DNA from: Candidatus Krumholzibacteriia bacterium
GTDB lineage: Bacteria; Krumholzibacteriota; Krumholzibacteriia; LZORAL124-64-63
NCBI GenBank assembly: GCA_024762975.1
Contig: JANTGJ010000016.1
Coordinates: 1 to 40,862, forward strand
DNA length: 40,862 bases
Direction of reading: 5' to 3'
The notes beneath the pieces are model-generated. The model worked only from the letters and a program-made list of their open reading frames with translations, ran no database searches and was not told the origin of the DNA. Positions 3,112-39,484 of the stretch are shown here, one piece after another (the first letter of the stretch is position 1; each line of letters opens with the position of its first letter). A program made the translations under genes and the position numbers.

Positions 3112-4095
3112 ATGCGGCGTCTCAGTGTGACCTTGGCGAGCCTGCTCCTCCTGCTCGCCGTGCAGGTATTCGCAGGCAATTCCTACCTCGGCCGATTCGA
3201 GATTGCCGAGAATGCGACCTATGTCGGCTCGGAAACCTGTCTCGACTGCCACGAAGACGTTGGCGAGTTCTACGCGAACTCTCCCCACGCCCCCGAGCGC
3301 GGCCTGACGGTACCCGGCACGAACATCTCGGGCTGCGAGGCCTGCCATGGACCCGGCAGCCGTCACATCGAAGAAGAGGGCGACGGCTACATCATCGGCG
3401 TTGAGTTGTTCAGCGAACTGGACGAGGACGGCAAGGTGGAGATGTGCGTTCAGTGCCACCTGGGCCAACGCGTCGACTGGATGGGCGGCCCCCACGCCGG
3501 AAGTGGAATCGGCTGCGCCGAATGCCACGCCGACCAGGTGCACTTCGGCGGCGACACGCGCCCGGCGCATCAGTTCTCGAATCCTTCCGAGTTCTGCCTG
3601 CAGTGCCACACCGAGCAGATCGCGGACTTCCGGATGCCCTTCCGGCATCGCGTCCTGGAAGGCGAGATCGAGTGCCGCGACTGCCACGATCCGCACGCCG
3701 GCCCCCGCGAAACGGGCTGGAACGGTGCGAATGACGCCTGCCTGAATTGCCACACCGAGATGGCCGGACCCTTCGTTTTCGAGCATGAAGGCGTTGCGGA
3801 CGAGGATTGCGCTACCTGCCACCGTCCGCACGGCTCGATGCACGACAAGCTGCTGATTACGGACGGCAACACGATGTGCCTGCAGTGCCACTACGACATC
3901 CAGTTCAATCAGGATGACGTTCTGGCCATCGGCGGATTCCCGCACGGTGATGTGACCGGCCTGTGCTCGCAGTGCCACCCGTCGATTCCCTCGGGTCCGA
4001 GTCCCCACGTACCTGCCGGCGGCGAAGCCCGCTGCACGGACTGCCACTACGAAATCCACGGCTCGAACGTCTCGGCGACGTTCAAGAACCAGTAA
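3112..4095 (+). CDS. Periplasmic multiheme c-type cytochrome, MtrA/DmsE-like, 11 CxxCH motifs
   Basis: 327 aa with a signal peptide (residues 1-21, LASLLLLLAVQVFA) and eleven CxxCH haem sites from C43 (CLDCH) to C308 (CTDCH): CLDCH, CEACH, CVQCH, CAECH, CLQCH, CRDCH, CLNCH, CATCH, CLQCH, CSQCH, CTDCH. Length and spacing resemble the DmsE/MtrA decahaem family, whose members carry electrons through an outer-membrane porin; one extra motif is present here. The downstream gene, 12 nt away, is a beta-barrel, as in mtrAB or pioAB pairs. GGAGG lies upstream of the ATG at 3112. Its likely role is the wire inside the porin, linking periplasmic carriers to the surface cytochrome. High confidence for multiheme cytochrome, moderate for the MtrA-like role. 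Confidence 0.9.
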   Translation: MRRLSVTLASLLLLLAVQVFAGNSYLGRFEIAENATYVGSETCLDCHEDVGEFYANSPHAPERGLTVPGTNISGCEACHGPGSRHIEEEGDGYIIGVELFSELDEDGKVEMCVQCHLGQRVDWMGGPHAGSGIGCAECHADQVHFGGDTRPAHQFSNPSEFCLQCHTEQIADFRMPFRHRVLEGEIECRDCHDPHAGPRETGWNGANDACLNCHTEMAGPFVFEHEGVADEDCATCHRPHGSMHDKLLITDGNTMCLQCHYDIQFNQDDVLAIGGFPHGDVTGLCSQCHPSIPSGPSPHVPAGGEARCTDCHYEIHGSNVSATFKNQ

Positions 4096-4107: not shown

Positions 4108-6036
4108 ATGAAGCAGACCCTGAAGTTCTCCGCGGCGATCACGGCTTGCACGCTGTTGCTGCTGTCGATCGCCCCGCTGGCGATGGCCGGCACCCCGATC
4201 CAGAACACCTGGGCGCCCGAGGGCGATCGCGTGGGCCTGGAAAACCACTGGGCACTGGGCTTCGATGCTCTGGACTCGTACGGCAGCGCGACCAAGACCC
4301 TCGAGGACTGGCAACTGGGCGAGGAATACTCCGGCTACGGTTTGTTCTCCTATCGGCGTGCCTTCGGCCCGGACCGTCGCCTCAGCCTGCGTGGCTACGG
4401 CACGAATGCCGACGGCAAGGACCTGACCGGCCGCTTCGTGTTGCAGGCCGGCTGCATCGGGAAGCGCACGCTGACCTTGAAACATCGTGGCTACAATTTC
4501 TTCAGTGACGATACCAGCGAACAGCGGAACCTGACGTTCGCCGCCGGCCCGGTACCCGACGCATTGGATACCGAGACCGGGATGGCCTGGTGCCGCAACG
4601 ATGTCGATCTGCGTTACCACGTCACCGACCGTTTGGATCTCTCGGTCGGGGCCATGCGCAGCGTTCGCGACGGCGCCAAGGCCAGCCTGTTGCGCGCAGC
4701 CACGGGATCGGCCGTGCCGGGACTGAAAACCTTCGATACCGAGATCATGGAATTCCGCTGGGGCGGCGCCCTGGCCCTGGGCCCGTTTGCCACGGATCTG
4801 CGAATGAGCTACCGGACGGCCGAGGGACAGCGCGATCTGGACGATCGTCACCTCAGCACCGACGACCAGAGGCTTTTCACCACGCGTGTCGGTGCGACCT
4901 ACGATATCGCTCCGGACACGCGCCTGCTCGGCCATTTCGTGAACTCGAAGCTGGAAAACGATGGCGTCGAGGTCCTCGGCAGCGACTCCTACCTGCCGGG
5001 TGTCGAGGCAACGACCAACGCCGGCGGCCTGTCCGTGGTTCACGCCCTGGGCTCGGCTACGTTGATCAATGCCAGCGCCAGGTTCCGCAGCCAGACCCTG
5101 GAGACCCGCTCGGACCTGGACGGGGTCACACGGCAATACGCCGACCGGGACCGCACTCGCCAGGAGTACCGCATCGACGTGCGCCACACCGGCATCCAGA
5201 AGACCCGCCTGAACGGCTACTACCGCTTCCAGTCCAGCGAACTGGACGGTACCACGACGGCCGGAGCCAATGTGCTGCCCGGCAACGTCGAGACCGGCGA
5301 TTTCCAGACGACGGTACAGGAGAAAACGCGTCAGGAATTGGGCGCCAAGGCCCAGTACCGGCTCGGCAGGAATACCAGGCTGAAAGCCAGTCTGATCTGG
5401 ACGGACGAGGATGTGAATCAGACCGACACCTGGCAGACGACCGACAACCAGCCCTGGTACTACTGGCTGGGCGACCGCACTACGACCCAATTGAACTGGA
5501 GACTGGCGCTGCACACACGCCCGGCAAAGAACTTCAGCCTGGACCTGGGTCACCAGATGCTGGACCGCGATTTCGAACTCGATGGCGCCGGCAAGGCGCA
5601 GACGTCGTGGAAGTCGCAACGCGGATTCGCGGCCGCCTACTGGCGCGCGGACGATATTTTCACGCTGCACTTCAACGCCTCGGTGGGCCGCGACCAGGCT
5701 GAACTGGTCGACGGTCCGGAGACTGCCGACTCACTCAGTCCGGTCGCGTACGACGGTACGACCTGGCGCATGGCGCCCGGCATGGTGGTGCAACTGAGCG
5801 CCAGGCTGCAGCTGGAAGCCCAATACGAAACGGTCCGTTTCGAGGACGACGGAGACGACCCGACCGGCCTGAACAAGCTGAGTACCGACTATGACCGGAC
5901 GACGGTTCGCGCCCGGTACCGCCTGCTCGACAGGATCAGCACGACCGCCTCGTACCGGCGCTACGTATTCGAGGAGAACCGGTGGGACGACACGATCAAT
6001 GACATCTACTCGCTTGCGCTGAGCGGGTCGTTCTAG
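4108..6036 (+). CDS. Outer-membrane beta-barrel of a porin-cytochrome conduit (MtrB/ExtI-like)
   Basis: 642 aa. Signal peptide MKQTLKFSAAITACTLLLLS...AMA, then alternating polar/hydrophobic strands throughout, such as 'LRLTYR'-type, 'TRVGATYDI', 'RTRQEYRIDV', 'RLNGYYRF', 'LGAKAQYRL' and 'TVRARYRLLD'. It ends in a terminal phenylalanine (LALSGSF), as outer-membrane barrels do. AAGGAG lies 8 nt before ATG 4108. I do not see the N-terminal CxxC typical of MtrB, so it could belong to another conduit-porin family such as ExtI. It sits directly between the 11-haem cytochrome and the regulator/lipoprotein cytochrome genes. Role inferred from position and barrel features: the sheath that lets the periplasmic cytochrome reach an outside partner. 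Confidence 0.75.
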   Translation: MKQTLKFSAAITACTLLLLSIAPLAMAGTPIQNTWAPEGDRVGLENHWALGFDALDSYGSATKTLEDWQLGEEYSGYGLFSYRRAFGPDRRLSLRGYGTNADGKDLTGRFVLQAGCIGKRTLTLKHRGYNFFSDDTSEQRNLTFAAGPVPDALDTETGMAWCRNDVDLRYHVTDRLDLSVGAMRSVRDGAKASLLRAATGSAVPGLKTFDTEIMEFRWGGALALGPFATDLRMSYRTAEGQRDLDDRHLSTDDQRLFTTRVGATYDIAPDTRLLGHFVNSKLENDGVEVLGSDSYLPGVEATTNAGGLSVVHALGSATLINASARFRSQTLETRSDLDGVTRQYADRDRTRQEYRIDVRHTGIQKTRLNGYYRFQSSELDGTTTAGANVLPGNVETGDFQTTVQEKTRQELGAKAQYRLGRNTRLKASLIWTDEDVNQTDTWQTTDNQPWYYWLGDRTTTQLNWRLALHTRPAKNFSLDLGHQMLDRDFELDGAGKAQTSWKSQRGFAAAYWRADDIFTLHFNASVGRDQAELVDGPETADSLSPVAYDGTTWRMAPGMVVQLSARLQLEAQYETVRFEDDGDDPTGLNKLSTDYDRTTVRARYRLLDRISTTASYRRYVFEENRWDDTINDIYSLALSGSF

Positions 6037-6046
6037 GGGCCGGCCG

Positions 6047-6643
6047 ATGCGAAACCGACGACAACAAATCACGGAAAACGCATCGCATCTGTTTGCCGAA
6101 AAGGGATACGAAGGCACCACAATGCGGATCATCGCCCGTGCCTGCGGCATCACCGAAGCGGCGATCTACCGGCACTTCCGCAACAAGGAAGATCTCTACG
6201 AGGCCGTCATCCGGTCCAAGGTGCAGAGTCACGATCTGGCAAAACTTCGGTCCCGCGAGGTGGGCGAAGGAACGATGGAAGAAGCGCTCACGAGCATTGC
6301 CGACCACATCCTGAGCCTGGTCGACCGGGATCCGGAACTGATCCGGCTGATGTTCAACAACAGTATGGAGACCGGAGACCTTGCGGCCATCCTCTTCAAG
6401 GAAGTCCGCCTCCCCTACATCGAATACATGGTCAGCGAATTGAACTACCGGATCGCCCGGGGCGAGGTTCGTCCGGTCGAGTCATTCATCACCAGCCGTT
6501 GCTTCGTGGGCATGGTCATGGACTGTGCCCTGAACGTCAGCGTCTGGTCGAAGATCAATCGGCAGGAGTTCATCGCGCACGATGTCGTCTGCAACAATGT
6601 CCCGATTTTCGCTCGTGGTCTGCTGAACGACGGTGTGGCCTGA
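6047..6643 (+). CDS. TetR/AcrR family transcriptional regulator within the conduit operon
   Basis: 198 aa. The N-terminus is a textbook TetR DNA-binding domain: 'ITENASHLFAEKGYEGTTMRIIARACGITEAAIYRHFRNKEDLYEAVI' (in pieces: helix 1 'ASHLFAEKGYEGTTM', HTH 'IIARACGITEAAIYRHF', then 'KEDLYEAVI') at residues about 8-55. The rest is an all-helical ligand/dimer domain. The ATG at 6047 is 10 nt after the barrel stop, so the gene is cotranscribed with the conduit and probably controls it; the ligand is unknown. The Shine-Dalgarno is weak (GGGGCCGGCC), consistent with low or coupled translation. Placement between barrel and surface cytochrome, rather than at an end, is unusual. Confidence 0.9.
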   Translation: MRNRRQQITENASHLFAEKGYEGTTMRIIARACGITEAAIYRHFRNKEDLYEAVIRSKVQSHDLAKLRSREVGEGTMEEALTSIADHILSLVDRDPELIRLMFNNSMETGDLAAILFKEVRLPYIEYMVSELNYRIARGEVRPVESFITSRCFVGMVMDCALNVSVWSKINRQEFIAHDVVCNNVPIFARGLLNDGVA

Positions 6644-6671: not shown

Positions 6672-8234
6672 ATGAAACGTACACTCGCGATCCTCACCTG
6701 CCTTCTGTTGCCGGCGATGCTGGCCGTGGTCGGCTGTGAGAACGACACCTCGAACGATCTGGGCGGCCCGGGCGGCGGCACCCAGTTGACGGACCTGACC
6801 TGTCTCGGCTGCCACTCCAGCGAAACCATGTTGCAGGAGACCCTGGGCGAGGTGGCATCGGCGAAAGTCGACGTGGCCATCAAAAGCGACGGCTGAGGCG
6901 GCTCCGTACCCGCGCTGGAAGCGTGGGAAAAGGTTTATATCCAGACCGACCGCCGCAATGGCCAGATTTTCATGGAGAGCACTCACGGACAGATGAGTTG
7001 CCAGACCTGCCATTCCGGACCTGCGGACCGCACCTTTGCCAGTGCCGAAGAGGCTCACGTCGGCGTGTTGCGAGATCCCAGCAGTTTCAATGAGGAAGGA
7101 ACGATTCCCGCCTGTGTCGGATGCCACCAGAACGAAGTCGAGTCGTCGGCAAGCAGCCTGCACACCAATTTGTGGGGTGAGATCAACGCGATCGAGATTC
7201 GCGGCGGCGCCACCTGCACGGTGCTGGGCACCGATCTGGAGGACTCCTTCCGGGGCAAGTGTGCGACCTGCCACGCCACCTGCGGCCAGTGCCATATCAG
7301 CCGGCCGACCAGCGTGGGCGGCGGATTCCCGGTCATCGCAACGCAGTACAACTCGCATCGTTTCCGCAGCCCGGATATGACCGAGCAGTGTACCGCCTGC
7401 CACGGCAGCCGCGTCGGGACCGATTTCCAGGGCGAGCTCGAAGGCAATGTTCCGGACGTCCATTACAGCCGGGGCATTTTCTGCAAGGACTGCCATTCGG
7501 CCACCGAGATGCACGGCGACGGCCAACAGACCGGCGACCACTACGACCACCGCTATGAAGTCGCATCGATGCCGCGCTGCGAGGATTGCCACCGCGACGG
7601 AACCGCCCCGAGCGTTGTCGTCGATACGGACAGCGACTGCACGCGCTGCCATATCAACGGTGTCGGTTCCCAGCCGATCGTACCGCCCGCCGCGCTGGTC
7701 AACCACGCCCATCACATTTCCAACAACTCGGATTGTGCACACTGCCATCGCGATGGTGTGCCGGCATCGACGCCGACGAACATGCAGTGCCAGGTATGCC
7801 ACTCGCAGCCCTACAAGAACTGCACGAACTGCCACAATCTCGACACCGACGAGGCTGCGGGGGAGAAGTTCGATATCAACCCCTCGCGGATCCAGTTCAA
7901 GATCGCGCGCAACCCCAGCCAGTACCGCGACGAGTATGACAACGTGCTGGTTCGCCACGTACCAGTCGATCCGGATACGTATGCCGACTGGGGCCTCGAG
8001 CTGCCCGACTACCTGGTTGCGCCGACGTGGAAATACACGTCACCGCACAACGTGATCCTGCAGACCCCGCAGACGACCGTCCCCGAGGGCGGCAGCTGCT
8101 ACACGGCCTGCCACAGCACGCCGGACGATCCTGACAGTGGGTGGTTCCTGCGCGCTTCCGATCTTGCCGGTTTGCCGGACGAGACGGCAAATCAACAGCT
8201 CGTCATCCCGGCTGGGTTCCCGGGTGACAGATGA
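6672..8234 (+). CDS. Multiheme c-type cytochrome lipoprotein with in-frame UGA read as selenocysteine (U75)
   Basis: 520 aa if UGA 6894-6896 is decoded. Start ATG 6672 has AGGAG at 7 nt. Signal peptide ends in lipobox VVGC (C22). The first haem site is C44LGCH; U75 lies in 'SDG-U-GGSVPALEAWEKV'; eleven further CxxCH motifs follow (CQTCH, CVGCH, CATCH, CGQCH, CTACH, CKDCH, CEDCH, CTRCH, CAHCH, CQVCH, CTNCH) plus one CX3CH at C476. The frame is the same on both sides of the UGA and only the joined product has lipobox plus all haems, so the upstream 74 codons and the downstream part form one gene. A SECIS-like hairpin follows. From memory, Geobacter ext clusters contain a cytochrome lipoprotein (ExtKL) annotated in places as a (seleno)protein; this may be its relative. 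Likely place: outer-membrane surface partner of the porin conduit. A nonsense mutation is the alternative. Confidence 0.8.
6894..6927 (+). promoter_or_regulatory. bSECIS-like element after UGA of the multiheme cytochrome
   Basis: UGA is at 6894-6896. A 7-bp stem CCCGCGC (6909-6915) / GCGTGGG (6921-6927), with one G-U pair, closes a 5-nt loop TGGAA (6916-6920). The loop starts 19 nt after the UGA and has G at its second position. This fits the known bacterial SECIS rules: a stem-loop in the coding region 16-37 nt after UGA with a G in the first two loop bases. Confidence 0.75.
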
Positions 8235-14449: not shown

Positions 14450-15667
14450 ATGCACCTGAACCGTAGATCCCCTTACGGCATACTTGCCGCCCTCACTCTC
14501 GTTCTCATGGCCAGCAGTGCGCTGGCCGGCGACGAGGGTCCGATTACAATGAGCCAATTCGACGAAGCGCTGGCCCGCGCGAAGGCCGAGAACAAACCGG
14601 TGGTCCTGGATTTTTTCACCGATTGGTGACCCAGCTGCCAGATGTTCGCCCGTGCGGCGAAGAGTGACGAAGACATCCTGGGCGCCCTGAAGGACGTCTT
14701 GTTGGTGCAGATCGATTGTGAAAAGGGCGATGGCCCGCAGATCGCCGAGAAGTATGAAGTCCGCGGCTATCCGACCTTCTTGGTGGTCGATCCGGCCGGA
14801 AACGTGACCGACGGGTGGATCGGCTATCCCGGCCCGCAGAAATGGGCCGAGTTCGTGGCAGCCGGCGGCAAGGACCGTCGCCCGATCGAGAAGAAAAAGG
14901 CATCCTACGAGCAAAAGCCGTCGCTGGATTTGGCCAAGTCGCTGGCCAACTATGCTTCGACGGCTTCCCGGTATCGCGATGCGGTCGAGTACTTCCAGAA
15001 GGCCCGCGAACTGGACCCCGCGAACGCACCCGACTACACGCAGGAGATCATGTACAGCCTGTACTACGGTGCGGGTGACAAGGTATTCACCGCTGACGAG
15101 GTACGCGCGGAAGCCGACTACGCCTTCGCCTCGGAGGGGGCCAGCGCAGCCGACCAGGTCGAATATGCTTCCATGATCACGGCGTTGGCCGGGGACATGG
15201 ACGATCCTCAACTGGCCGTCCCCTACCTGAAGCAGGCCCTGCAGGCGAGTGAAGGAACCACGGACGAAGACGTCGCCTCGACGCGCATCGAGTTGGAAAT
15301 CGCCTATGCGCTGATCGCGGAAAACGACAAGGAGAAAGCCCTGGCGCTGAAGAAGTCCACATTGGATGCGGACTGGCGCGAGGATCTGCGCGGAGTGAAT
15401 CGATTCGCGTACTGGTGCTTCGAGAACCAAGTCAATCTGGCCGAGGCGGAAGAGCTGGTTCTGGCGGGAATCGAGAAATCCGGCGATGATGACACGATGC
15501 GCAATCGCTACCTGAATACGGCTGCCGAACTGGCGCACCTGGACGGTCGCAACGGCGAAGCCGTGGCTTTCATCCAGCGGATCCTCGAGACGGATCCGGA
15601 TCGCGGCTATTTCCAGCGGCAGCTGGTTCGATTCGAAAACGCCCTCTCGGACCGGAACGGCGGTTGA
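14450..15667 (+). CDS. Secreted thioredoxin-like selenoprotein (WUPSC) with TPR-like C-terminus
   Basis: 405 aa when UGA 14627-14629 is decoded as Sec60. ATG 14450 has AGGAG at 7 nt; signal peptide ILAALTLVLMASSALA. The thioredoxin fold follows: 'KPVVLDFFTDW', then U60-P-S-C63, 'QIDCEKGDGPQIAEKYEVRGYPTFLVVD' (split at YEV; cis-Pro in GYPTF) and 'GYPGPQKWAEFV'. The UGA is exactly where the first redox Cys of WCxxC belongs, a known selenoprotein pattern. Residues about 150-400 are helical TPR-like pairs ('RYRDAVEYFQKARELDP', 'QLAVPYLKQALQAS', 'NGEAVAFIQRILETDP'). The upstream 59 codons and downstream 345 codons are in the same frame. A SECIS-like hairpin follows. It probably acts as a periplasmic disulfide reductase; partner unknown. 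Downstream biotin ligase begins 27 nt later. Confidence 0.9.
14627..14661 (+). promoter_or_regulatory. bSECIS-like element of the thioredoxin selenoprotein
   Basis: UGA 14627-14629 is followed by a perfect 6-bp stem TTCGCC (14645-14650) / GGCGAA (14656-14661) with 5-nt loop CGTGC. The loop begins 21 nt after UGA and has G at its second position, as bacterial SECIS elements need. Confidence 0.75.
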
Positions 15668-24950: not shown

Positions 24951-25388
24951 TCAGTCATACGCCCGGCGGGTCGCATCGTCAGCCAGCAACTCCGTCAGAT
25001 CGTTCCGATTCCGCATCTCGGACCAGGTACCCAGGCGCTCATGCACCCAATGGTATTTTTGGGGAATGGGATGGGTACCGATGACGACCTCCACGCCGAA
25101 CTTCTGCGGGATAAAATCCTCGAAATAGTCCAGGTACGGACAAGGCGGGTACCCCACGACCAATCCGGTGGCCAGGTGGATGACCTCGGCTCCGTTCTTC
25201 AACATTTCCTCGGGAGCGTTCTCGATATTGCCGCCTGGACAGCCCCCACAGGACGTGAAACCGACCAGTTCCACCTCCTGATCGCGGTAGCGTGCAAACC
25301 CGCCTTCCCTTGCCCGAAGCGAACGAAAGCACTTGCCGCCGGCACAGGACCGGTACCGGTCACAGATAATAATTCCGATCTTCTTCAT
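24951..25388 (-). CDS. CGGC domain protein
   Basis: 145 aa. It carries 'IIICDRYRSCAGGKCFRSL' at the N-terminus and the name-giving 'GFTSCGGCPGGN' near residue 45, plus 'YPPCPYL' near 82. The cysteine clusters suggest binding of a metal or Fe-S cluster; this family (CGGC) has no firm function that I know of. It follows the two NifX-like genes by 15 nt and belongs to the minus-strand operon that starts at 29447. The likely job is in metal or redox cofactor handling, inferred only from context. Confidence 0.85.
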   Translation of the reverse strand: MKKIGIIICDRYRSCAGGKCFRSLRAREGGFARYRDQEVELVGFTSCGGCPGGNIENAPEEMLKNGAEVIHLATGLVVGYPPCPYLDYFEDFIPQKFGVEVVIGTHPIPQKYHWVHERLGTWSEMRNRNDLTELLADDATRRAYD

Positions 25389-25403
25389 GGCCTCTCCTGA
25401 CGT

Positions 25404-25802
25404 TCAACTCCTGCGGAGATCCAGAAAACCGCGCTCCTCGCCCAACTCCCATTCCGTGGCGATCAACGGGAAACTCTCGCGCGCGAGTTCCAGCCCCGGT
25501 CCCACCTTGTCGTGCGAGGTCAACACACACACGAACTTCGATCGGATCCGTTTGATGTTCGGCCCGAACACGCGGGTCATCGCGACCTGCACACCCTGTT
25601 TTTTCAGGAGGCCGGCGATGCCTTTCGCTTTCTTCGGATCGGCATGGCCGTCCTCCTCACCGGTCCGGTTCGGCACCCGCAGAACGAACTCTGCTCCCTG
25701 TGGCGTCAAATCATACAGGTCATAAAATTCGGCATCACCGAAATGACGTGCGACAAAGGAATCTCCATCATCCGTGGCCAGCGCGATTCGAAATTTGTCC
25801 AC
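25404..25802 (-). CDS. NifX/NifB-type dinitrogenase cofactor-like protein (1)
   Basis: 132 aa, GTG start at 25802 with GGAGG 9 nt upstream. 'RIALATDDGDSFVARHFGDAEFYDLYDL' (N-terminal, two parts joined at HFG) and 'LKKQGVQVAMTRVFGPNIKRI' fit the NifX/NafY/DiNase iron-molybdenum cofactor fold. Outside nitrogen fixation such single-domain proteins accompany Fe-S ATPases and probably carry metal clusters. The C-terminal third ('VCVLTSHDKVGPGL...') departs from the short forms. It starts 2 nt after the neighbouring NifX-like stop. Confidence 0.8.
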   Translation of the reverse strand: MDKFRIALATDDGDSFVARHFGDAEFYDLYDLTPQGAEFVLRVPNRTGEEDGHADPKKAKGIAGLLKKQGVQVAMTRVFGPNIKRIRSKFVCVLTSHDKVGPGLELARESFPLIATEWELGEERGFLDLRRS

Positions 25803-25804
25803 GG

Positions 25805-26152
25805 CTATACGCCTCCGAATTTCTTGAGGGCTCCGCTACGGTAGGCTTCGTACGCCTCGCGCACGGTCATCTCGCCGGCCCCGACGTAGATCTCGGTCCC
25901 GGTGGTCTGCAGCACAGCGGCCGCGTTCCCCCCGGGGCCATTCCCGGTAATCAACACCTGGGCGTCGAACTCCGAGAGTTTCTGCGCCGTTTTCGGTCCC
26001 GCCCCGTGGGCCTCGTTTTCGATCGCGGTGTTGTCGTAGGTCTGGATCTTATCGGATTCCTCGTCGTACACGAAGAAGAACTGTGTTCTGCCGAAGCGTG
26101 GATCCATTTTCGAATCCCAATCGGTACCCGTGGTCGTAAAAATCAGCTTCAT
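25805..26152 (-). CDS. NifX-type dinitrogenase cofactor-like protein (2)
   Basis: 115 aa, full length for the family, with GGGAGAG 5 nt before ATG 26152. Motifs: 'KMDPRFGRTQFFFVYDEES' (RFGR site), 'EFDAQVLITGNGPGGNAAAVL' with the glycine loop, and 'VGAGEMTVREAYEAYRSGAL'. Family members bind FeMo-co precursors or other metal clusters; here no nif genes are near. Its neighbours on both sides are another NifX-like gene and the ferredoxin-MinD ATPases. Confidence 0.9.
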   Translation of the reverse strand: MKLIFTTTGTDWDSKMDPRFGRTQFFFVYDEESDKIQTYDNTAIENEAHGAGPKTAQKLSEFDAQVLITGNGPGGNAAAVLQTTGTEIYVGAGEMTVREAYEAYRSGALKKFGGV

Positions 26153-26187
26153 GGATCTCTCCCTGGTGTGAATTGCCTACCGTCTCG

Positions 26188-27072
26188 TCAAATCTGGTGG
26201 TCGCCCGCCAGTTCGGTGATTTTTTTCCAACAGTCGCCCAGGAGTCGTGCCAGGTCCGGGTCCCACTCGACGATCGTCCTGCCCTGGGTGATCGCCGAGG
26301 TGAACCTTTCGTCGTACGGGATCTCGGTCAGGATGGGAATCTCCTCGTTCTCCAAAAATTCCCGCAACTCCCGGCTCACCTTCGCATTCAGATCCGCCTT
26401 GTTGATGATGCAACCGGCGGCGATTCCGAACATCTTGACCAACTTGTACACTCGCCGCAGATCGTGCAGCCCCGAGACCGTGGGTTCGGTCACCAGCACG
26501 ACCAGCGAGGCACCGGAAAGGGAAGAAACGACCGGGCAACCGACACCGGGCGATCCATCGACCAGGACCCAGTCCTTGCCCTGTGCAGCGGCCGCTTCGC
26601 GGGCCATGCGCTTGACCTTCGCCACCAGCTTGCCCGAGTTGTCCGCCCCGATCTTCAGCCGCGCATGGATCATCGTCGAACCGGTACGGATTGCCGAGCG
26701 ATACCACTGGCCGACATGTTGTTCGATATTCTCGATCGCATCGTCGGGACACACGCGCGCGCAATAGCCGCAGCCTTCGCAGCCGAGTTCGTCGATGACA
26801 TGGCGGCCACCGATCACCTCGACGGCGTCATAGCGACACACGGCCGCACATTGTCCGCAATCGCTGCACTTCGACGGATCGATCACCGCCAATTCGCCGC
26901 TATGGAAATCCTCGCGATCGGCGAAGTCGGGCTCCAGGAGCAGATGCATGTCGGCCGCATCCACGTCGCAATCGGCCACCACGAGTTCAGCACCTCCCAG
27001 CACCGCGAACGATGCCGTCAACGAGGTCTTTCCCGTGCCGCCCTTGCCGGAGAGAACCACGATTTCCTTCAT
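26188..27072 (-). CDS. MinD-superfamily P-loop ATPase with inserted ferredoxin domain (1)
   Basis: About 294 aa. Deviant Walker A 'SGKGGTGKTS' at the N-terminus, 'VVADCDVDAADMHLL', then an inserted 2x[4Fe-4S] ferredoxin ('KCSDCGQCAAVCRYDAV' and 'GCEGCGYCARVCPDDAI'), then 'VDGSPGVGCPVVSSLSGA' and 'VTEPTVSGLHDL', as in COG1149. A GTG (27075) and an ATG (27072) are adjacent; GGGAGG is 6 nt from the ATG, which I chose. The stop of the upstream gene overlaps the start. Related ATPases (Mrp/NBP35) load Fe-S or metal clusters onto targets; the ferredoxin insert suggests a redox-coupled version. Confidence 0.92.
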   Translation of the reverse strand: MKEIVVLSGKGGTGKTSLTASFAVLGGAELVVADCDVDAADMHLLLEPDFADREDFHSGELAVIDPSKCSDCGQCAAVCRYDAVEVIGGRHVIDELGCEGCGYCARVCPDDAIENIEQHVGQWYRSAIRTGSTMIHARLKIGADNSGKLVAKVKRMAREAAAAQGKDWVLVDGSPGVGCPVVSSLSGASLVVLVTEPTVSGLHDLRRVYKLVKMFGIAAGCIINKADLNAKVSRELREFLENEEIPILTEIPYDERFTSAITQGRTIVEWDPDLARLLGDCWKKITELAGDHQI

Positions 27073-27935
27073 CACGATCCTCCCGCGGCGTGAGCATGAA
27101 TCAGGCTTGCGATCGCATCCGTAGCCTCCGCCACTTCGGGAATCTCGCGATACAGGAGTTTTCCGGCCGCGTAGGTCTCGGCAATCCGGCGCTGGTTCGG
27201 GATGCGGGCCGCCAGATGGATTCCCTCTGCAGCGCAGTATTGCTCGACCTGGTCGTCACCGATTCCGTACCGGTTCAGCACGACGACAAACTCCTTCCCC
27301 AAGCGGCGAACGGTATCGACCGCCAGTTTCAGATCGTGGAGTCCGAAAGGAGTAGGCTCGGTGACGAGGATCACCAGATCGGCACCCCGTGTCGCTTCGA
27401 TGACGGGACAGGAGGTTCCCGGCGGCGAATCGAGGATCTTGACGACCTCCGGCGAAAAACTTTCATCCACGTAGCGGAGCGTCTGATGAATCAGGGGAAC
27501 GGCCTGCTCTTCGCTGATCATCAGCCGGCTCTCCACAAAATCCAGAGCGCCGGATCGCAGGTGTTTCAGCTCGCCCATCGGCTTTTGCTGCATGGGCAGC
27601 GAGGCGGTCGGACAAAGCTCGGAACACGCGTAGCATCCGTGGCAAAGCTCGGGAAAAATCATGATGCGATCGCCCATCTTCAGGATCGCATTGAAATTGC
27701 AGACCTCCTGACAGTTGCCACACAGGGAGCACGTTTCCGACTCCCAGACGGGAATCATCTTGTACTTGGGCTCGTCGTGGAATAATTCACCGGCAACGAA
27801 GAGGCCCGAGTTGGGCTCCTCCACGTCCAGATCCACCAGCACCACCGGCTCGGATTCGGCCATGAACCGGGCCAGATTCGTGGACAGGGTCGTCTTCCCG
27901 GTTCCTCCCTTGCCACTGGCGATCGCGACCTTCAT
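27072..27935 (-). CDS. MinD-superfamily P-loop ATPase with inserted ferredoxin domain (2)
   Basis: 287 aa. 'ASGKGGTGKTTLSTNLA' (Walker A), 'VVLVDLDVEEPNSGLFVAG', ferredoxin insert 'TCSLCGNCQEVCNFNAI' and 'CHGCYACSELCP', then 'LDSPPGTSCPVIEATRGA' and 'VTEPTPFGLHDLKLAV'. It is a paralogue of the next gene; the two probably form a heterodimer, since tandem pairs of COG1149 genes are common in anaerobes. It starts 2 nt after the stop of the NifX-like gene at 27938; the ribosome site (GGGG) is weak, so translational coupling is likely. Confidence 0.92.
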   Translation of the reverse strand: MKVAIASGKGGTGKTTLSTNLARFMAESEPVVLVDLDVEEPNSGLFVAGELFHDEPKYKMIPVWESETCSLCGNCQEVCNFNAILKMGDRIMIFPELCHGCYACSELCPTASLPMQQKPMGELKHLRSGALDFVESRLMISEEQAVPLIHQTLRYVDESFSPEVVKILDSPPGTSCPVIEATRGADLVILVTEPTPFGLHDLKLAVDTVRRLGKEFVVVLNRYGIGDDQVEQYCAAEGIHLAARIPNQRRIAETYAAGKLLYREIPEVAEATDAIASLIHAHAAGGS

Positions 27936-27937
27936 CG

Positions 27938-28309
27938 CTACGCCCCACAGTTGGGTTCGTGATCCGGCTCCCCATGATTGCAGAGGTTGCCCCCGGCCTG
28001 GAGCTCATCGCGCAGGTACCGCTCCACGAGCTCACGGGGTTCTTCCTCGCCCACCCCGAGGTGGACCTCGATCTGGTTCTCGCGAAACAGGTTCTGCGCC
28101 ATCACACCCATGCCTCCGGCGATGATGATATCGACTCCGTTGTCCGCCAGGAACCGGGGATAGCTCCCGGGCTGATGAACCGGCGGGTCCAGAAACTTCA
28201 GTTCACCCAGCTGATCGCCATCGGCCTCCACGACGGCGAAACTCTGGCAATGACCGAAGTGGGCACAGGCCTTTCCGGCCAGTGTGGGAATCGCGAAAAC
28301 ACGCTTCAT
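27938..28309 (-). CDS. NifX-type dinitrogenase cofactor-like protein (3)
   Basis: 123 aa from ATG 28309 with GGAG upstream; the longer open frame is Gly/Arg rich shadow of the previous gene. 'RVFAIPTLAGKACAHFGHC' (HFGxC site), 'PRFLADNGVDIIIAGGMG', 'AQNLFRENQIEVHLGVG' match the NifX/NifB C-terminal fold, and the tail 'GGNLCNHGEPDHEPNCGA' adds Cys/His residues that could bind metal. The start overlaps the stop of the zinc-ribbon gene by 4 nt. Confidence 0.9.
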   Translation of the reverse strand: MKRVFAIPTLAGKACAHFGHCQSFAVVEADGDQLGELKFLDPPVHQPGSYPRFLADNGVDIIIAGGMGVMAQNLFRENQIEVHLGVGEEEPRELVERYLRDELQAGGNLCNHGEPDHEPNCGA

Positions 28310-28545
28310 TTCTTTTCTCCTGCCTTGTTGTTCTTTTCCAGCAATTCCTCGCGAACCAGGGTACGCCCGCAATCGGGGCACTTCAGCGTCGTACATTTTT
28401 GGCCTCTTTGATGGGGGACCTTCGCGCCGCATCCCGCGCAAACGCAGAATCCTCCCGCCCCGAAGCCTCCGCCGCCGTTGCGACCACGACCGCCGCCGTT
28501 GTGGCCACGCCCCCCGCCGGCTCCCGCTCTTCCTCCGCCAGACAT
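28306..28545 (-). CDS. Small Gly-rich zinc-ribbon protein
   Basis: 79 aa. A Gly/Arg-rich first half (SGGGRAGAGGG...GGGGFG) leads to a zinc ribbon 'CVCAGCGAKVPHQRGQKCTT' and 'KCPDCGRTLVREELLEK'. ATG 28545 has GGAAGAG about 5 nt upstream; a GTG at 28569 would add eight residues but has a poor ribosome site. Such proteins occur in NifX/MinD/DUF134 operons and may act as metal-binding accessory factors; function unknown. Confidence 0.75.
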   Translation of the reverse strand: MSGGGRAGAGGGRGHNGGGRGRNGGGGFGAGGFCVCAGCGAKVPHQRGQKCTTLKCPDCGRTLVREELLEKNNKAGEKK

Positions 28546-28581
28546 ATCTCTTCCTTTCTTTCGAGTCACCGGACCGGATCC

Positions 28582-28986
28582 TCAATCATCCTGCGCCAGG
28601 GTCTCGATACGATCGGCAAGAACCCGAATCTGCTCCTGCAAACTCACAATCTCGTCGCGAAGTTTCGGGGTTGCTGGCGATTCTTCGCTGCCGGTCCACC
28701 GGCGATCAGCATTCCTCGATCGCCAACGGTTCCCTCGACCCTCACCGACGCCGTAGCCCCGGCCGAAACCACGGCCATACCCATTGCCGCCTCCCCAAGC
28801 ATCGTGAGCGCCGCGGCCTCGGCCCCTACCATGCCCCGAACCGAATCGCCGTCCGAATCCGCCCCCTCGGCCGGCCGGCGGGTCGCCCGCTTCGAATCCG
28901 GCATGATCATTTCCCGCACAGTATCCCAATCCCCGTCCCGTCATGGGACCTCGCTCGTCGGGACCCTTCTTGTTTCCACCAGCCAT
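28582..28986 (-). CDS. DUF5320 family protein, Gly/Arg-rich
   Basis: 134 aa. The N-terminus 'RGPMTGRGLGYCAGND' is the DUF5320 signature (GPMTGRG.GYC). A long Gly/Arg-rich low-complexity middle follows, then a coiled-coil-like end 'LRDEIVSLQEQIRVLADRIETL'. ATG 28986 has AGGA 4 nt upstream. The family is small and of unknown role, nearly always found beside NifX-like and DUF134 genes. It may be a nucleic-acid or membrane-surface binder, which I cannot tell from the sequence. Confidence 0.82.
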   Translation of the reverse strand: MAGGNKKGPDERGPMTGRGLGYCAGNDHAGFEAGDPPAGRGGGFGRRFGSGHGRGRGRGAHDAWGGGNGYGRGFGRGYGVGEGRGNRWRSRNADRRWTGSEESPATPKLRDEIVSLQEQIRVLADRIETLAQDD

Positions 28987-28991
28987 TTTTC

Positions 28992-29447
28992 CTACCTCCG
29001 TCTGTTGCGATGGTGCCGGGTACAGCACCGGCCGTGACCGAATCGATCCGCCAGATCGGCGAGATTCGTCGACCCGCAGTCCGGGCACCGTGTCGTTTCC
29101 GAGTCGAAAGCGATATTTACGAGATGGCCACAGTCTCCACACCGGAGCAGATTTCGTTGGAAGTGAACTTCCCCGCCCTCGATTTGCAGGAGTTTTCCCT
29201 CGATCAGGAACCGTGCAACCTTTTGCCTCGCCTTTTCGATGAGTCGCGAAAACGTCGAGCGGGAGATCTCCATCTCCCTTGCTGACTCGGCGTGGTCCAG
29301 ACCCTCGAAATCAGCCAATCGAATGGCTTCGAGTTCGTCCAATGCCATAGAAACGGTGTCCAGATGCCGGCTGCGTACGCCGGTCGGCTTGAAGCTGGAG
29401 AACGCCGGCGGACGGTGGACATTTCGTTTCTTCTGGGGTCGAGGCAT
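28992..29447 (-). CDS. DUF134 family DNA-binding protein with HTH and zinc ribbon
   Basis: 151 aa from ATG 29447 (AAGGAG at 5 nt). The DUF134/UPF0251 sequence 'MPRPQKKRNVHRPPAFSSFKP' (in two halves) and sigma-region-4-like HTH 'MALDELEAIRLADFEGLDHAESAREMEISRSTFSRLIEKARQKVA' (read in parts) are clear. A zinc ribbon 'CGDCGHLVNIAFDS...CPDCGSTNL' and a His/Arg tail 'FGHGRCCTRHHRNRRR' follow. It is the first gene of the minus-strand operon and probably its regulator, since a dyad operator overlaps the promoter just upstream. Confidence 0.88.
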   Translation of the reverse strand: MPRPQKKRNVHRPPAFSSFKPTGVRSRHLDTVSMALDELEAIRLADFEGLDHAESAREMEISRSTFSRLIEKARQKVARFLIEGKLLQIEGGEVHFQRNLLRCGDCGHLVNIAFDSETTRCPDCGSTNLADLADRFGHGRCCTRHHRNRRR

Positions 29448-29480
29448 CTGATCTCCTTCGCTTTCGTTAGTCTCTACATT

Positions 29481-29503
29481 ATGCACTTATGTGCATTATA
29501 GCA
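29481..29503 (-). promoter_or_regulatory. Extended -10 promoter overlapped by a palindrome, DUF134 operon
   Basis: On the minus strand TGCTATAAT (29503-29495) is a perfect extended -10 element. Overlapping it on the plus strand is ATGCAC (29481-29486), TTAT, GTGCAT (29491-29496), a 6-bp dyad. The position, 34-48 nt before the DUF134 start, suits a repressor site, most simply for DUF134 itself. A TTGACT is also present at 29524-29529 but is too far for a standard -35. Confidence 0.5.
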
Positions 29504-39142: not shown

Positions 39143-39484
39143 GTGAGCGAACTGAACCTGATCGCCGTCAGCGATGCGGCCGACGAAGCCTTCCAGGGCT
39201 TCGACTGGACCGAGCACGACGGCAAGGGCGTGCGCCTGTTCATCCAAGGCTTCGGCTGAGGCGGCCCGAGCATCGGAATGGCTCTGGATGAGCCAAAAGG
39301 CGATGACCTGGTCATCGAAAACAACGAGATCAAGTTCGTGGTGGACAACCAGACAGCGGACGTGTTGCGCCAGAGTGGCGGGCTGACGGTAGACTACCTG
39401 AACGAGGAGCACCGGCACGGCTACATGCTGACGCTCGGTTCGGCCAGCGACTGCAGCGACGGTGGATGCAACGGCTGCGGCTGA
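39143..39484 (+). CDS. HesB/IscA-like selenoprotein (U39)
   Basis: 113 aa when UGA 39257-39259 is decoded. GTG 39143 has AGAGG at 6 nt. 'DGKGVRLFIQGFG-U-GGPSIGMALDEPKGDD' (read around U39) is the A-type carrier pattern GFGCGGP, with Sec in place of the first cluster-binding Cys. 'FVVDNQTADVL' and the C-terminal Cys cluster 'SDCSDGGCNGCG' follow. HesB-like selenoproteins of this kind are a known family. A-type proteins hold or pass on Fe-S or other metal clusters; in this Sec branch the role is not settled. The frame is identical before and after the UGA and a SECIS-like hairpin follows. Without readthrough only 38 residues, with no cluster motif, would be made. Confidence 0.92.
39257..39295 (+). 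promoter_or_regulatory. bSECIS-like element of the HesB-like selenoprotein
   Basis: UGA 39257-39259 is followed by a perfect 6-bp stem TGGCTC (39279-39284) / GAGCCA (39290-39295) with loop TGGAT (39285-39289). The loop starts 25 nt after UGA and has G in position 2. The loop shares TGGA with that of the cytochrome element. Confidence 0.75.

Follow-up and report, generated by a model that had tools for sequence, protein, structure and literature searches.

A UGA codon inside the frame of a multihaem c-type cytochrome gene (UGA 6894) in a Krumholzibacteriota genome is, judging from comparative sequence evidence, virtually certain to be read as selenocysteine (Sec), with SelB, tRNA-Sec, and a hairpin just downstream directing the decoding. 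Overall, the product is likely to be a Sec-containing multihaem cytochrome lipoprotein acting as a surface or near-surface subunit of a conduit, together with a DmsE-like cytochrome and an MtrB-like barrel. The original prediction, a Sec residue in a multihaem lipoprotein belonging to an electron-conduit operon, is backed by the homologue comparison, by RNA structure, and by the decoding machinery. The window, that is, the whole stretch of 40,862 nucleotides analysed, is one contig of the source genome (G000; 3.8 Mb, 96.1% complete), and the phylum genomes examined appear to be MAGs. The features of the locus are listed in Table 1.

Table 1. Features predicted at the Sec-cytochrome locus and the evidence for each
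Feature	Position	Strand	Evidence
Periplasmic DmsE/GSU2203-like multihaem cytochrome (MtrA position), predicted	3112..4095	+	TIGR03508, 201.8 bits (cut-off 192.2); conserved in place
Outer-membrane beta-barrel, MtrB/PioB-like, predicted	4108..6036	+	PF11854, 23.2 bits (cut-off 23), borderline
TetR-family regulator, between barrel and cytochrome	6047..6643	+	PF00440; in place in most relatives
c-type cytochrome lipoprotein gene with 13 haem motifs, almost certainly Sec-containing	6672..8234	+	Translation; haem motifs; 28 homologues elsewhere in the phylum
Lipoprotein signal peptide, lipobox cysteine C22	6672..6737	+	C22 invariant in 26 full-length UGA homologues
UGA, almost certainly read as Sec 75, in the invariant G-U-G-G motif	6894..6896	+	27/29 homologues
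bSECIS-type hairpin, 7-bp stem, 5-nt loop UGGAA	6909..6927	+	Synonymous null; covariation; absent in two non-UGA homologues
Four-domain rhodanese lipoprotein, Cys C117, C284, C424, C582	8318..10255	+	PF00581, 4 stretches; co-occurrence with the Sec cytochrome

Read through the UGA, the cytochrome gene encodes 520 residues (6672–8231). The only internal UGA corresponds to residue 75, and the terminal stop is another TGA (8232–8234). Twelve CxxCH motifs (C44, C110, C148, C197, C204, C240, C271, C303, C323, C355, C373, and C384) and one CX3CH motif (C476) are found in the translation. Residue 75 is located between haem 1 (C44) and haem 2 (C110), and haem 1 is the only one upstream of the UGA. The translation and the motif count bear out the earlier reading that the UGA splits a cytochrome with 12 CxxCH sites, a CX3CH site, and a lipobox, and the motif positions agree with its placing of the lipobox and the first haem before the UGA and of the remaining haems after it. 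The AlphaFold2 model of the cytochrome, calculated from 13 homologues, has a mean pLDDT of 34.5 and a pTM of 0.20, too low for use, and a PDB sequence search with the family profile gave no match.

The cytochrome is encoded in 29 of 80 Krumholzibacteriota genomes. TGA occupies the identical alignment column in all but two of these homologues, always as G-U-G-G, and the open frame holds TGA in the same 27. The codons at this column in the other two are CAA (Gln, genome G043) and TGG (Trp, genome G066). The original prediction proposed aligning the homologues at position 75 and looking for Cys or Sec; the Sec column was found as expected, but Cys was not (0 of 29 phylum homologues), and neither His nor Met was ever seen at the site among the 29. 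When the N-terminal Sec module was used as the sole query, the same 29 genomes were retrieved, each with a single copy and none with a Cys paralogue. Cys-containing homologues are the usual, though not strictly required, criterion for a bacterial selenoprotein, and they are absent among these 29 phylum homologues. A wider contig search with one query sequence, which is weak for distant homologues, gave 12 loci that are titled Krumholzibacteriia or Krumholzibacteriota or match phylum loci already found. No relative was detected by a plasmid tblastn search or an IMG/VR scan. A sequencing error as the source of the UGA is rejected, since 27 separate assemblies carry it.

If the UGA were a real stop, the locus would yield a lipoprotein fragment with one haem plus an independent cytochrome initiated at a downstream ATG (6972), and an ORF from this ATG is indeed present (6972–8234). 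However, this ORF lacks an evident signal peptide, and periplasmic haem attachment would therefore fail. Moreover, the 16 codons directly after the UGA are under purifying selection at the protein level (pN/pS = 0.16 within genera), no different stop codon ever replaces the UGA among the 29 homologues, and the hairpin is found only where the UGA is. Contradicted by the selection, the homologues, and the hairpin, termination at the UGA is rejected as extremely improbable. The conservation of TGA, the pN/pS value, and a hairpin exceeding the synonymous-codon null together argue that the reading of this UGA as Sec is not due to chance. The case for TGA 6894 rests on comparison; a codon-usage scan of the window did not select it. 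As TGAs with coding sequence on both sides, the scan picked only those at 14627 and 39257, and both are real candidates, in agreement with the two clear selenoproteins claimed for the window. The former (14627–14629) is an in-frame TGA in a gene for a thioredoxin-like secreted protein (DW-U-PSC), and the latter (39257–39259) lies in frame in a HesB/IscA-like gene (GFG-U-GGPS) with a GG-loop hairpin downstream; both products are likely selenoproteins.

The hairpin (CCCGCGC-TGGAA-GCGTGGG) was originally described as having a 7-bp stem and a TGGAA loop and as starting 19 nt past the UGA. The hairpin itself stands, but it is the loop that starts at 19 nt; the stem starts at 12 nt. The hairpin folds with 8 bp and a GGA loop; its MFE is −13.6 kcal/mol, and the UGA-to-loop distance is 19–20 nt. 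In the published bSECIS model, the apical loop has 3–9 nt with G in its first two positions, the stem has 4–16 bp, the UGA-to-loop spacing is 16–37 nt, and the MFE is at or below −7.5 kcal/mol (PMC13188914). The hairpin falls within every constraint of this model. Compared with synonymous recodings with the codon usage of the same gene, the hairpins of the UGA rows give a mean z of −2.55, versus −0.15 across 209 control windows taken from these genes, with some rows individually weak, most of all those of the distant family f4, whose stem is slightly shifted in register. The fifth stem pair is A-U instead of C-G in 8 of 25 distinct rows. All eight have GAG for GCG, an Ala-to-Glu change, together with a synonymous GCT for GCG in the opposite arm, and they are spread over several separate branches of the tree. 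The covariation score was matched in none of 500 pair shuffles, a significance that relatedness can inflate. The hairpin is selected beyond coding needs, with compensatory synonymous change. Rfam at the gathering threshold gave no match over the window, and the SECIS case therefore rests on the comparative test.

The genes named for checking in the original prediction, selA, selB, selC, and selD, are all present in the source genome (SelA, 454.7 bits; SelB, 318.1 bits; SelD, 358.7 bits; tRNA-Sec, 68.4 bits). The SelD gene (L142, G000:C59:13950-14870) has an in-frame TGA, and SelD is probably a selenoprotein itself. The complete Sec machinery should be considered when asking if the UGA stands for an amino acid other than Sec, by near-cognate Trp readthrough or by reassignment, for which the TGG codon at the Sec site of G066 could be cited. 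Contrarily, the cytochrome gene itself terminates in TGA, the SECIS-type hairpin is under selection and is lost together with the UGA, and the second non-UGA relative has Gln. With the machinery, these observations lead us to reject decoding as Trp, and decoding as any amino acid other than Sec has a negligible probability.

The two relatives that have lost Sec serve as natural controls. GDGUGG is changed to GSGQAG in G043 and to GDAWVG in G066, and the hairpin is gone in both (z = −0.09 and +0.89, respectively). SelB and tRNA-Sec are retained in both genomes, indicating that the Sec loss is local. Each relative is nested in a UGA-bearing clade (support 100/99 and 100/98, respectively), and two independent losses are thereby indicated. 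The haem motifs are retained in both cytochromes; since the cytochrome persists without Sec in two lineages, haem conduction as such does not require Sec. The branches of the non-Sec cytochromes are longer than those of their sisters (0.86 vs. ~0.22 for G043, L012/L081; 0.37 vs. ~0.1 for G066, L031), which suggests relaxed or changed constraint after the Sec loss.

The genes around the cytochrome point to a conduit. A DmsE/MtrA-family cytochrome, an MtrB/PioB barrel, and a lipobox cytochrome, the set by which MtrAB/DmsEF-type conduits are recognised, are all present, and a conduit architecture of the operon is predicted from these families. The barrel gene is an uninterrupted ORF without Sec. 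The order decaheme cytochrome, beta-barrel, TetR, Sec cytochrome, and rhodanese recurs in relatives throughout the family wherever the contigs permit, and TetR, cytochrome, and rhodanese are still recognisable in more distant families. Each of the four rhodanese domains has an active-site-type loop, C-[YW]-[ST]-G-Q.

The rhodanese is present in all 26 testable UGA genomes, found genome-wide in 25 and at the locus in G010; G009, whose contig breaks off within the cytochrome, was left out. The G043 locus is on a 2.1-Mb contig, with unrelated genes following the cytochrome and the rhodanese missing. The TetR gene is lost there too, so the change in this lineage is not confined to Sec and rhodanese. 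In G066, the best genome-wide match to the rhodanese has 29% identity over a short stretch. The contig there extends only 116 nt beyond the cytochrome, and the rhodanese may thus sit in an assembly gap; these 116 nt are unlike the spacer with an AAAGGAG site in the sisters. Absence of the rhodanese from G066 is probable but not certain. The distribution (26 of 26 UGA genomes vs. 0 of 2 non-UGA genomes) gives a Fisher p of about 0.003 when genomes are counted as if unrelated. The selenium site of the cytochrome thus appears to be tied to the neighbouring rhodanese.

As the most likely role, we tentatively propose that the Sec is a redox contact between the haem wire and the sulfane-sulfur or selenium chemistry of the rhodanese, or chalcogen oxyanion chemistry. 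The cytochrome would be a surface or near-surface subunit of the outer-membrane electron conduit, its Sec occupying a Gly loop (G-U-G-G) flanked by haems 1 and 2. The selenolate would attack sulfane sulfur or selenium held as a persulfide on the rhodanese lipoprotein, or would attack a chalcogen oxyanion, and the resulting Se–S or Se–Se intermediate would be reduced by electrons from the haems. One-electron haem flow would in this way be turned into two-electron chemistry on chalcogens. When selenium is lacking, translation would yield no more than a 74-residue fragment with one haem, suggesting that expression of the cytochrome may also depend on the selenium supply.

The remaining probability is divided among haem ligation, the binding of metals or oxyanions, and a redox switch. 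The original prediction named a haem ligand, a substrate-binding or catalytic residue, and a switch side by side. Of these, a catalytic or substrate-binding role is favoured over a haem ligand, though not proven, because Gln and Trp replace Sec with the haem motifs kept and because Sec is lost with the rhodanese in at least one lineage. The position of the Sec between two haems of the same chain would suit an axial haem ligand, with an Se–Fe bond and an altered potential, rather than a chalcogen-reactive site. However, haem ligands are rarely swapped for Gln or Trp, neither Cys, His, nor Met ever takes the place of Sec, and the loss in G043 accompanies that of the rhodanese; axial ligation is therefore improbable. 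A further alternative gives the Sec a role in binding metal ions or metal(loid) oxyanions (Te, Se, As, or Hg) in extracellular respiration or detoxification, independently of the rhodanese. The partly analogous extHIJKL of Geobacter, linked to the reduction of selenite, tellurite, and metal oxide (PMC5877670, PMC6148476), speaks for this alternative, but rhodanese and Sec are co-present or co-absent in the testable genomes, albeit with only two independent losses, one of them uncertain. Such binding is possible but rather unlikely. Returning to the redox contact, a more speculative form of it makes the Sec the exit port of the haem wire, handing electrons to rhodanese-held sulfane sulfur or selenium in a respiratory module, with at least three unrelated Sec proteins (this cytochrome, ExtKL, and GSU2204) putting DG-U sites in outer-membrane conduits; we regard this form as a doubtful possibility.

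ExtKL, long predicted to be a Sec cytochrome (PMC1914089, PMC5877670, PMC6148476), resembles the cytochrome in several respects. Both are multihaem cytochromes with a UGA-encoded Sec, in clusters where an outer-membrane barrel is encoded alongside a rhodanese-like lipoprotein, and in both the Sec follows Asp-Gly (IPDG-U-PTPNR in ExtKL). In contrast, ExtKL has five haems followed by a C-terminal Sec domain (PMC1914089), while here one haem precedes the Sec and twelve haem motifs follow it, and the barrel and rhodanese of the window differ from those of extHIJKL by NCBIfam. The ExtKL model NF040886 (cut-off 250 bits) gave no match to the cytochrome up to E = 1 and none in the source genome at E ≤ 1e-8, and matches to the NCBIfam ExtM model were weak and local (19 bits vs. 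a cut-off of 800). The suggestion that the cytochrome may belong to the known ExtKL family is thus rejected, also in view of the true ExtKL of the phylum, which carry Sec in another domain. These true ExtKL genes (L069–L072; PDG-U-PTPNR) were found in four phylum genomes, all without the Sec cytochrome of the window.

GSU2204, catalogued like ExtKL (PMC13188914), forms with the decaheme GSU2203 an outer-membrane conduit with a DmsE-like cytochrome, as in the window, and has its Sec in a DG-U-AGH motif. The Sec of GSU2204 is in the beta-barrel, whereas here it is in the cytochrome. Identity with GSU2204 is rejected, since the cytochrome has no match to NF041027 and the barrel, which lacks Sec, scores 27.3 bits against a cut-off of 350, a remote similarity. 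The D-G-U tripeptide common to the three proteins may reflect convergence or chance. MtrABC and DmsEF-type conduits share the combination of multihaem cytochrome, beta-barrel, and lipoprotein cytochrome, but to our knowledge they have neither Sec nor rhodanese, the two components that characterise the conduit of the window. NCBIfam has no entry above its cut-off for the cytochrome, no family list naming the protein was found, and a search of the available papers found none pairing Krumholzibacteriota with a selenoprotein. As far as the libraries searched show, the cytochrome appears to represent a distinct, uncatalogued family of Sec cytochromes.

Sec in multihaem cytochromes and conduits has been little studied, as with ExtKL, GSU2204, and an octahaem tetrathionate reductase family. 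The Krumholzibacteriota cytochrome would add another conduit type in another phylum, with a different Sec position and no Cys counterpart. Since no Cys homologue was found, searches for Cys/Sec pairs would miss this family. The natural Sec-loss variants also lack the partner rhodanese, firmly in one case and probably in the other, which leads to the specific, testable proposal that Sec couples haem conduction to the chemistry of sulfur or selenium.

Several other features were observed. The source genome carries a second Sec-bearing conduit, in which a GSU2204-family barrel with a predicted Sec (L065, G000:C66:815-2560; FDG-U-AGH) adjoins a DmsE-like cytochrome. The hairpin loop is mostly G-U in the GSU2204 genes of the phylum, and GG or GU in its ExtKL genes and in the HesB-like gene of the window. 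The minus strand of the window at 24951–29486 encodes, as judged by eye, MinD/Mrp-type ferredoxin-bearing ATPases, NifX/NafY-like small proteins, and a CGGC-type protein.
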